From Blastocatellia bacterium (GTDB taxonomy: Bacteria; Acidobacteriota; Blastocatellia; Chloracidobacteriales; JADJPF01), in NCBI GenBank assembly GCA_025057015.1, contig JANWYG010000011.1, forward strand, positions 1 through 64,000: a stretch of DNA of 64,000 nt, read 5' to 3'. The position numbers and the translations under genes were made by a program. The notes below the pieces were generated by a model. It did not search any database. It saw nothing but the letters and a program-made list of their open reading frames with translations, and had not been told where the DNA came from. Below, one piece after another: positions 723 through 52,191 of the stretch; position 1 is the stretch's first letter; the number at the start of each line of letters is the position of its first letter.

Positions 723-1343
723 ATGCTTATCAATGCACAACAGCATTTGGCCCACGCAGACAGCGTGCTAGCAAAGCTGATACAAAAGTATGGGAACTGT
801 AAACTATGCCCTAGATTGGCCTACGATGTTCTCTGCGACGCTATTATTTCGCAGCAACTGTCTCTCAAAGCAGCAATTACAATCTCGTCAAGGTTCAAAG
901 CGCTGTTTAAAGACAGAAAACTTACTCCTAGCCAAACATTATGCATATCCGATGAGCAGCTACGTATGATAGGCCTTTCCAGAGCTAAGATAGATTATTT
1001 GAAGAACTTAGCACGAAATTTCAAACATATATCTGACATTTCGTTTCAAGAAATGACAGACGAAGAAATTATCTATCAGCTTACTTTATTTAAAGGAATA
1101 GGTGTGTGGACAGCACAAATGTTTCTCATCTTTTCGTTAAACCGATTAGACGTATTACCTACTTGCGATCTTAGCCTGCGCAAAGCAATTCTAAAACAAT
1201 ACAAGCTAAATAATCTACCAAGCAGAGTAGATATCGAACGAATAGCGCAAAAGTGGAGGCCTTACAGGACGATAGCAGTATGGTACTTATGGCGCAGCAT
1301 AGACAACTTTCCGTCAGAAGCTACAGAATACGCTCTCTCATAA
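723..1343 (+). CDS. DNA-3-methyladenine glycosylase II (AlkA-like, HhH-GPD family)
   Basis: This protein likely excises alkylated bases from DNA as the first step of base-excision repair. Its 206 residues fit the compact HhH-GPD family that lacks the N-terminal domain of E. coli AlkA. The helix-hairpin-helix is seen as LFKGIGVWTAQMF (about residues 123-135). The segment LDVLPTCDLSLRKA carries the catalytic Asp at about residue 149. ATG 723 follows GAGG with good spacing. The start region has an AIISQQLS segment typical of the family. The gene stands alone, and its active-site segment is copied in inverted orientation downstream (1446-1517), which is unusual. Confidence 0.9.
   Translation: MLINAQQHLAHADSVLAKLIQKYGNCKLCPRLAYDVLCDAIISQQLSLKAAITISSRFKALFKDRKLTPSQTLCISDEQLRMIGLSRAKIDYLKNLARNFKHISDISFQEMTDEEIIYQLTLFKGIGVWTAQMFLIFSLNRLDVLPTCDLSLRKAILKQYKLNNLPSRVDIERIAQKWRPYRTIAVWYLWRSIDNFPSEATEYALS
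1130..1201 (+). repeat. left arm of 72-bp inverted duplication (inside alkA-like gene)
   Basis: Bases 1130-1201 encode roughly residues 136-160 of the glycosylase, including the catalytic Asp. The reverse complement of 1446-1517 matches this segment at 69 of 72 positions by hand alignment. The match begins abruptly at CTTTTC and ends abruptly after AAAACAATA. Confidence 0.92.
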
Positions 1344-1445
1344 TCAACGAACTTTTTCACGTAGCCCAACAAATCGTAATTTTAGACATGATTTCGAGAC
1401 TTCATGTGAAGTCCGTTAATAAGTGCTCAGCCTTTCTATACTGTC

Positions 1446-1517
1446 TATTGTTTTAGAATTGCCTTGCGCAGGCTAAGATCGCAAGCAGGTAATACGTCTA
1501 ATCGGTTTAATGAAAAG
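1446..1517 (-). pseudogene. inverted 72-bp copy of the glycosylase active-site segment
   Basis: Read on the minus strand, this segment encodes 24 codons nearly identical to the alkA-like gene, with LDVLPACDLSLRKA in place of LDVLPTCDLSLRKA. The three differences are A/G transitions; two are silent and one gives Thr to Ala. In-frame stops lie just upstream (TGA) and just downstream (TAG), so it is a fragment and not a second gene. The rest of 1344-1775 shows no convincing gene. It holds a small palindrome (1398-1413, arms GACTTCA/TGAAGTC) and otherwise AT-rich sequence. A transcript running past 1343 could fold this copy onto the alkA coding region. Confidence 0.85.
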
Positions 1518-1775: not shown

Positions 1776-2153
1776 ATGAAAGTAGCAGTTTTGATCCTAC
1801 TCTCAATTTTCTGTATTGACACATATGGGCAAGGCGCATATGGCACAGGCAGGCTCCCGCGGACGCAGTCTAGAGTAAGGCGTGAGTTAAAGACAATTGT
1901 CGTAGTCGAAAGCATCAACCCTGAGGAAATGACTTTCAAAGGTGTAGATGAAATCACTGGCGATCGTATGACATACAAGTTGAGCAAGCGAACCGAGATT
2001 AAATTAGAAAAGGGTATGTTTGACTTCTTCGGTAAGAAAGAAATAGCATTTTCCGATATACAAAAAGGGCAGCGACTAGAGATCAAGTATAACGAGTACT
2101 TACCGAGCTCGGTCACTGAGATCAAGGTACTCAAGCCTAGGAATAAGAAATGA
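1776..2153 (+). CDS. small secreted hypothetical protein
   Basis: The 125-residue product begins with a Sec-type signal peptide (MKVAVLILLSIFCIDTYG, cleavage likely near G18-Q19). A basic segment and a mostly beta-strand domain follow, containing KTIVVVESINPEEMTFKGVDEITGDRMTYKL. The pattern of a short strand-rich domain regulating a 'valley' of charged residues resembles small OB-like periplasmic proteins (DUF5666-like), but I cannot assign a family. The stop overlaps the ATG of the YgfZ gene (ATGA, 2150-2153), so translation is probably coupled. It is the first gene of a five-gene plus-strand operon reaching 6229. Confidence 0.8.
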   Translation: MKVAVLILLSIFCIDTYGQGAYGTGRLPRTQSRVRRELKTIVVVESINPEEMTFKGVDEITGDRMTYKLSKRTEIKLEKGMFDFFGKKEIAFSDIQKGQRLEIKYNEYLPSSVTEIKVLKPRNKK

Positions 2154-14166: not shown

Positions 14167-15822
14167 TTAAAGGTAGCCTAGCCCTCTTAGCTTCTCAGCC
14201 ACTTCGCGTTCTTCTAGTTCCGAAAAGCTATATCTGCCAGCAGTATTTTCGTAAGAACTCTGTATTGAAACAGCTAGCTGTTCTAATGCCTCTTCTTTCA
14301 ACAACTCTTGCAATACTCGCCCGTCCAAATCAGATGGTGGCACTATCGCCAAAAGTAGCAGTACCGTCGGTACGATGTCATAAACCACAGCATTTTGAAC
14401 AGTAGAGCCAGGACGAATTTTAGGCCCATCGCAAATAATTACCCCATGCGGACGGTGTGCACCATTCCACCAAAAACCTTTCCTACGAATAGCCTCCGGT
14501 ACAGGCCGCTTCAGTATCACATCTGGATTCCAAACAACATAGAGATCACTAGCGTGCGAGACATACTGCCCAGTGTAAACTTGCGAGCGCTTACGCACTT
14601 CAGAAACTATCGGTCGACCTGTCTCAACTTCCTTCCACTGCAGCAGCAGGTTCGTTACTTCATCACACACCTTCTCATAATCCTTTGGCTCCACTATGCC
14701 GTACTTGTTACGTCCTTTGAGGTTTATATTGACAATATTGCGGCCATATTCTGTATAAGCGATAGTCTTTTCCCAAACAATCCTCTCATAAAAACTATTC
14801 TTCTGCGCTATAGGAATGTTTACTTCACCAACCATTCCCTTTATAGCTCGCTTCACACCCCCTGGTAATACAGCCGAAAGAGTACGTCTTACACCTTGCT
14901 TTAAAGCTCCTAAAGTCCCCACATCAGCCGACGGAACACGTGATTCTTTGAGCGTCAACAAGCCGCAACTTTGCAGATACTCGACCATATGAAAAGAGCC
15001 CTGCGTATGACAACCCATTCCATGATCAGAAACTATTATGAAATTAGCATCTTCACCTGCAACAGCACGCAATTCACCTATTTGTTCATCCATAAGCTCA
15101 TAAAAATATCTTATCGTCCCGCCATAGCGACGAGCCTCCCGCTCGTCATACTCAGGATGACGAGGCTCGATGTACTTCCAGAAATAATGCTGTGCCCAGT
15201 CAGTACAGGTGTAGACCACCATAAAGAAGTCGGGCCTATACAACTCCATCAGATATTTAGCCGCCTCAGTACGCAACACCGCAAGCTCTGTCCAAAGCTC
15301 TATAGCTTCATCCAACCGCCCCTTAGCCATAACCTCCGGCAACTTAGGAGGCGTAGGAGCATATCCTGGGAAACGCTTCATAACTTCGGTCCTAAGTTCA
15401 ACAGGACTGAACGCATTCTCATCAAACAACGGAGCATCTAGCCCCGAAATCATAAAGCTGCCTTGTGCACTCTCTGCAGGATAAGTCATAGGAACATTTA
15501 TCATACCGGCCGTCTTACCGGCATGAGCCAGCATAGCGAAAATAGACTCACACTTTCGGTCTCGGCCAGTGTAGATAACTTGTTCGTTAGTTGCAAAATC
15601 CCGCTCGGAAAATACATACAGTCCGTGTTTACCTGGATTTTTACCCGTAATGATCGAGGTCCAAGCCGAAGCGCTATGTACGTTAGGTGTAGAAAGCAGC
15701 AAGCCTTTTCCGCCGTTACTCATCATCTTGGCAATGTTTGGCAAACGTCCTTCGGCAACATACTGCTCGATGAGTAACATAGTTGCTGCATCCAGTCCCA
15801 CTACCACCACCTGCGGATTCAT
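14167..15822 (-). CDS. alkaline phosphatase-superfamily / type I phosphodiesterase protein
   Basis: The protein belongs to the alkaline phosphatase superfamily of nucleotide pyrophosphatase and phosphopentomutase-like enzymes. The N-terminus has VVVVGLDAATMLLIEQYVAEG, and the presumed nucleophile region is SASAWTSIITGKNPGKHG. A metal-binding block is seen as VSDHGMGCHTQGSFH, and a late GAHRPHGVI motif supplies more His ligands. The open frame reaches 15852, but ATG 15822 has AAGGAG 7 nt upstream, giving 551 residues and no signal peptide. Family members clustered with flippases are thought to act on nucleotide sugars, glycolipids or other phosphodiesters. The substrate is unknown. It lies between the beta-propeller gene and the flippase in a same-strand run. 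Confidence 0.87.
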   Translation of the reverse strand: MNPQVVVVGLDAATMLLIEQYVAEGRLPNIAKMMSNGGKGLLLSTPNVHSASAWTSIITGKNPGKHGLYVFSERDFATNEQVIYTGRDRKCESIFAMLAHAGKTAGMINVPMTYPAESAQGSFMISGLDAPLFDENAFSPVELRTEVMKRFPGYAPTPPKLPEVMAKGRLDEAIELWTELAVLRTEAAKYLMELYRPDFFMVVYTCTDWAQHYFWKYIEPRHPEYDEREARRYGGTIRYFYELMDEQIGELRAVAGEDANFIIVSDHGMGCHTQGSFHMVEYLQSCGLLTLKESRVPSADVGTLGALKQGVRRTLSAVLPGGVKRAIKGMVGEVNIPIAQKNSFYERIVWEKTIAYTEYGRNIVNINLKGRNKYGIVEPKDYEKVCDEVTNLLLQWKEVETGRPIVSEVRKRSQVYTGQYVSHASDLYVVWNPDVILKRPVPEAIRRKGFWWNGAHRPHGVIICDGPKIRPGSTVQNAVVYDIVPTVLLLLAIVPPSDLDGRVLQELLKEEALEQLAVSIQSSYENTAGRYSFSELEEREVAEKLRGLGYL

Positions 15823-50012: not shown

Positions 50013-50137
50013 GAAAAAATTTTTCCGCTCAACAAGCAACTTTTTATCTCTCCTTCCGATAAGCTGAGTGAAAAGTATTTTTGATACACGTAATTCAAAA
50101 ACGGTATTTCAAAAGATCAAACATTTGGGAGGATAAA

Positions 50138-50758
50138 ATGGGATTTCTAGGTGGTGTAGGTAAGGTATTTAGTGGAGTATTTAATGCAGTAAGAAACATC
50201 GCTTCTAGCGGCTTAGGAAAAACCTTGATTGGTATTGCAGGTCGAGTTTTAGGCGGTCCGCTTGGCGGAATAATCGCCAATGCAGCCACTAGCCTCTTGT
50301 CGAAAGGCAAGCTAGACTTTAAGAACCTGCTAAAGACTGGCCTAAATATATTCGGTGGTATAGCCGGCAAGTTCGGCTTGAGCGATGTTGTCAAGAATCT
50401 GCCCTCTATATTGAAGAACCCGACTGGTTTGCTCGGCAGCATCGGAAAGCTGTTCCAGGGTGGCATTGGGAAAGTTATAGGCGATCTGATTAATGGCACT
50501 GGTCTTGGCAAAAAGATTGGTGATATCCTAAACAAAGTTACAGGCTTCCTCGGCAAAGTAGCTGAGTTTGGCTCGAAAGTTCAAGACGTACTGAAGACCG
50601 TCACTGACCTGCTCGGCAAGTTTGGTATCCAGGTCAAGTTCCTGAATGACTTTGCAGAAAAGCTGAGTGCAGGTTTGAATATGCTCAACAAGATCATAGA
50701 CATCGCTAACAAGATCAACGGCATATTCAACGATGCTATGCAGCTGCTTCGTGCGTAG
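50138..50758 (+). CDS. Gly/Lys-rich amphipathic hypothetical protein
   Basis: ATG 50138 follows GGGAGGATAAA; an open frame from 50081 lacks a ribosome site. The 206-residue product is strongly repetitive in composition: Gly, Leu, Ile, Lys and Asn make up most of it. Short motifs resembling GLGKKIGDILN recur (GLGKTLIGIAGRVLGG, GIGKVIGDLING, GLGKKIGDILNKVTGFLGK). It has no signal peptide and no clear transmembrane span, but many amphipathic helices and glycine-rich turns. Such composition resembles pore-forming or membrane-active peptides and some structural repeat proteins. I cannot assign a family. It follows the LysM protein by 125 nt. Confidence 0.72.
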   Translation: MGFLGGVGKVFSGVFNAVRNIASSGLGKTLIGIAGRVLGGPLGGIIANAATSLLSKGKLDFKNLLKTGLNIFGGIAGKFGLSDVVKNLPSILKNPTGLLGSIGKLFQGGIGKVIGDLINGTGLGKKIGDILNKVTGFLGKVAEFGSKVQDVLKTVTDLLGKFGIQVKFLNDFAEKLSAGLNMLNKIIDIANKINGIFNDAMQLLRA

Positions 50759-52104: not shown

Positions 52105-52191
52105 AATCCCTTCCCTGTAGGAACTTGAAAATACCAAACTTGCCGAGTAGGTCAGCGAAGCTCTTCAGTACGTCCTGAACTTTCTAAAGCG

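Follow-up and report, generated by a model that had tools for sequence, protein, structure and literature searches.

In a Blastocatellia bacterium, an alkA-type glycosylase gene is followed, in its downstream spacer, by a short inverted copy of its own coding sequence. We consider it quite probable that this copy is a neutral inverted templated insertion generated by a replicative template switch, and that it is probably tied to a genome rearrangement. A second inverted fragment in the same window (the whole stretch of DNA that was analysed, 64,000 nucleotides, positions 1 to 64,000 of contig JANWYG010000011.1) and the order of the surrounding genes point to a mutational origin.

The copy (1446-1517, minus strand) and the source arm (1130-1201, plus strand) are reverse complements of 72 nt each, identical at 69 of the 72 positions (95.8%), so that direct comparison reproduces the figure given in the sequence-only reading of this DNA. 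The arms, separated by 244 nt, share exact runs of up to 24 nt, and similarity is lost abruptly at both ends. Within 860 kb of the genome, the match between the arms has a BLAST E of ~1e-25; no exact inverted match exceeded 16 nt in 100 resamplings of the region 723-1775 by a first-order Markov model, which approximately keeps dinucleotide content. The match is far above chance expectation. The copy is a non-coding fragment and, as had been stated, not a second gene.

The source arm spans codons 136-160 of an intact gene (723-1343, plus strand) encoding a 206-aa Mag/AlkA-type DNA-3-methyladenine glycosylase of the HhH-GPD family (PF00730, E 3.6e-15). The best PDB match of the product is Mag1 of S. 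pombe (3s6i, E 2.7e-30), and its identity to the orthologues from sister genera is 51-53%. In addition to the HhH-GPD match, the protein contains the motif aspartate: in the alignment to Mag1, Asp149 (within LPTCDLSL) falls on the PADDLS-motif Asp. The Asp of this motif is the catalytic one in the family, which makes Asp149 the likely catalytic residue, and the alignment supports the previous assignment of the copied segment to the likely catalytic-Asp region. Both flanks of the donor segment align to orthologues, and the gene continues uninterrupted across it. Two residues ahead of the motif Asp149, this glycosylase has Thr147; the 17 other aligned orthologues have Val, Ala, Glu, Asp or Leu at this position.

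The three differences between the gene and the copy are all A/G transitions, two of them silent, in agreement with the sequence-only reading. In the sense of the gene, position 1136 (codon 138, position 3, silent) is G in the gene and A in the copy, position 1184 (codon 154, position 3, silent) is A in the gene and G in the copy, and position 1161 (codon 147, position 1) is A in the gene and G in the copy, so that this codon reads ACT (Thr) in the gene and GCT (Ala) in the copy. The first base of codon 147 is G in 16 of the 17 other aligned orthologues and C in one, and none of them encodes Thr. Because nearly all orthologues start this codon with G, the copy most likely keeps the older base (a likely ancestral Ala147 codon), whereas the gene appears to have mutated after the duplication. 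Retention of the older codon in the copy disfavours both an artefact and ongoing homogenisation of the arms. Furthermore, the probable codon 147 change in the gene would have created an A-C mismatch and therefore speaks against selection for pairing of the arms; in the would-be RNA stem, two of the three differences disrupt pairing as A-C mismatches.

An assembly or amplification artefact might be suspected in a draft genome of 23 contigs, with a window that begins at a contig end and an arrangement seen nowhere else, but such an origin is very unlikely given the three differences, including the codon 147 base common to nearly all relatives, and the unique sequence on either side of the copy. 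The sequence-only reading had also regarded an artefact as less likely, on the strength of the three differences, and the presence of the relatives' codon 147 base in the copy reinforces this view. Judging from these comparisons, the copy is a slightly decayed fossil rather than a sequencing artefact.

In a DNA search of the whole genome, the spacer (1344-1775) matched only itself and the alkA arm, and there was no clear match at the corresponding sites of the sister genera. A DNA search of 58 relatives, which look like members of Blastocatellia/Chloracidobacteriales and include no genome of the same genus, found no copy of 1446-1517; thus, the same arrangement, for which a search of related genomes had been proposed, is absent from this set. 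The spacer is not alignable to the copy-less relatives. Palindromes and short repeat clusters account for nearly all the inverted self-matches in the alkA loci of the relatives, and none of these matches duplicates an extended part of the glycosylase gene. A 42-nt match in one relative (G046; E 4e-4, 83%) lies mostly in the spacer beside the copy and was taken as a chance similarity. A scan of genome collections yielded one member of the family (52% identity, on a 25,510-base contig that is evidently from G001) and one distant MAG, and no genome of the same genus.

The spacer with the copy lies at a break in gene order. In three sister genomes (G001, G002 and G003), a zinc-ribbon repeat protein gene, a small ORF (seen between the zinc-ribbon gene and alkA in G001 and G002) and alkA are followed by a convergent gene of 222-226 aa and by genes for proteins that, from our own reading of the sequences, we take to be an S41-like peptidase and a TrmL-like protein. 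Upstream of alkA, the gene order in the window is the same as in the sister genera. Downstream of alkA, the window contains a gene for a conserved 125-aa secreted-like protein (1776-2153, plus strand) and a GcvT-like gene, a pair that is conserved as a syntenic block elsewhere in the sister genera. The convergent gene (14246-14896) and its two followers are found on contig C23 of this genome, where a 728-aa ORF beside the convergent gene occupies the place of alkA. Because the downstream neighbours of alkA are on C23 and the 125-aa/GcvT-like block is located elsewhere in the sisters, we identify the spacer as the breakpoint interval. The overlap of the copy with the gene-order break may be accidental, because breaks of synteny are frequent among genomes as distant as those of the sister genera, whose glycosylase is only about 50% identical.

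Inverted duplications are known from inversion breakpoints in Drosophila, where they are attributed to staggered breaks (PMC3355041), and the alkA copy resembles them in that single-copy DNA is duplicated in inverted orientation where gene order breaks. However, a staggered break would leave each copy with one of the donor flanks; the alkA donor has both ancestral flanks intact and the copy is purely additive, which excludes a simple staggered-break inversion. An origin of this kind, or from a mobile element or retro-element (MITE, DGR, retron), is decidedly unlikely. The copy sequence is not repeated elsewhere in the genome, and no reverse transcriptase was found in the genome, which is ~97% complete; on the latter ground, DGRs and retrons were rejected. 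The repeats of DGRs have the same orientation and are mutated at adenines. Other candidates were also tried and rejected: a repeat element, as there are no further copies and the CACAGAG-type intergenic repeats are unrelated; a phage origin, for which there was no match; and Ku-dependent end-joining capture, as Ku was not found in the genome.

Several repeat features were observed along the way. Positions 1-273 of the window contain near-perfect 60-bp tandem repeats (units of PSVKPSSPPSDPMATVVGGI) within a zinc-ribbon-type gene truncated at the contig end, and the sister orthologues of this gene contain looser repeats of the same type. Between genes of this genome, ACCACAGAGACACAGAGGACACAGAG-type repeats of either orientation form clusters in the stretches L076 (5500-8160), L081 (870-1790), L066 (19250-19500) and L069 (11450-11870). 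Some contig ends have identical or near-identical termini (L065 1-253 and L080 1-253; L063 1-141 and L064 1-141), and these common sequences suggest assembly breaks at repeats.

Template switching produces reverse-complement repeats in a single step (PMC8794818) and has been studied at E. coli quasipalindromes (PMC7202029). As expected of a template-switch insertion, the fragment downstream of alkA is the reverse complement of a donor that lies nearby and is intact. Under the scenario that we favour, a switch during replication or replicative repair would have moved the nascent strand onto the opposite-sense template within the alkA-type gene; after ~72 nt of backward copying, synthesis would have resumed in the spacer 245 nt downstream, probably at or near the time of the rearrangement that placed alkA next to the 125-aa/GcvT-like block. 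The gene and the copy would then have diverged by the three transitions, at least one of which (codon 147) probably occurred in the gene. With template-switch insertions as described by the four-point model and by E. coli quasipalindrome mutagenesis, the alkA copy shares a short reverse complement, an intact donor and the capacity to form a hairpin, but its length (72 nt) and its distance to the donor (245 nt) both exceed those of classic quasipalindrome corrections. Also, 72 nt is well above the ~10 nt expected for short-range template-switch events in apes (PMC7954356), and no clear microhomology extends beyond the arms at the junctions of the copy, although microhomology is not required in every template-switch event. 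Because of this length and these junctions, we infer, rather than observe, the mechanism; the link to the rearrangement and neutrality are put forward on the same footing.

A second inverted copy is present in the same window. The source arm at 50575-50643 (plus strand), within a 225-aa ORF (50081-50758), has an inverted counterpart at 52119-52184 (minus strand; 85.5% identity, with a 3-nt gap). The donor ORF is syntenic with a TPR gene and a HAD-hydrolase gene in G001. The copy lies directly upstream of the HAD gene, between it and a lineage-specific 99-aa ORF that was not found in the sister genera; the synteny with G001 stops at this point, and at the corresponding site, G001 has different genes and no such copy. 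This second copy is older than the alkA copy. After removal of the CACAGAG-type repeat clusters, the 860 kb of the genome that were sampled contained no other clean local inverted copy of unique sequence. Two in 860 kb would correspond to about 8 per genome, but this is not an unbiased rate and leans upward because the window was picked for one of them.

The sequence-only reading had suggested that the copy silences or tunes the glycosylase, either in cis or through a convergent RNA acting in trans. In the cis version, a transcript reading through past 1343 would fold the copy onto the coding region, and RNase III would cut the stem and lower or tune the glycosylase. The folding proposed for such a transcript is borne out by prediction, with 70 arm-to-arm pairs and an arm duplex of -114.9 kcal/mol; on the plus strand, no intrinsic terminator-like site was found between the stop codon and the copy, and RNase III is present in the genome. 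Nevertheless, the same folding is expected of every fresh inverted copy, the stem has two A-C mismatches, one of them probably due to a mutation of the gene that was left uncompensated, the 5' arm lies within the translated region, and the arrangement is not conserved, so we regard this reading as quite unlikely. Neither the conserved arrangement nor the compensatory changes expected of a regulatory element were found among the 58 relatives. Thus, of the regulatory proposal, the possible stem stands, whereas silencing or tuning is accompanied by no conservation, promoter above chance or compensation.

The trans version has the wrong polarity. A convergent, minus-strand RNA of 1446-1517 would share the sense of the alkA mRNA, so that the two could not pair; antisense polarity would require a plus-strand transcript of the copy. 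Such a plus-strand RNA would be near-perfectly complementary to the alkA mRNA, but promoter-like sites occur at chance number, the nearest plus-strand one upstream of the copy ending at 1329, and Rfam gave only two sub-threshold chance matches, neither of them at the copy. We therefore consider regulation by an antisense RNA from the copy extremely improbable. Hardly more credible is an invertible switch, in which homologous recombination between the arms would flip 1202-1445 and turn the gene off. After the flip, the gene would specify a 159-aa protein that ends right after the arm (KQ-stop), with the C-terminus cleanly lost; against this, the arms are just 72 bp long with three mismatches, the assembly contains the intact form, and the arrangement is absent in the relatives. 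It is also very doubtful that the inverted copy, itself made by template switching, is a newborn self-antisense element that renders the alkA read-through mRNA a substrate of RNase III; if true, it would represent an early stage in the birth of a regulatory RNA.

A partial coding copy with the potential for a long dsRNA stem also recalls the plant miRNA genes that arose by inverted duplication of their targets (PMC3237417). The alkA copy differs from these in that it shows no sign of conservation. To our knowledge, plant-type RNAi machinery is not expected in bacteria.

The copy downstream of alkA is real, ordinary in kind and probably neutral. Seen as a mutational fossil, it is a clean case, in a bacterium, of a long inverted templated insertion located where gene order breaks, and the window holds another, older one. 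Should fragments of this sort prove to be transcribed, they would illustrate a one-step route by which bacteria can acquire long RNA stems and antisense elements.
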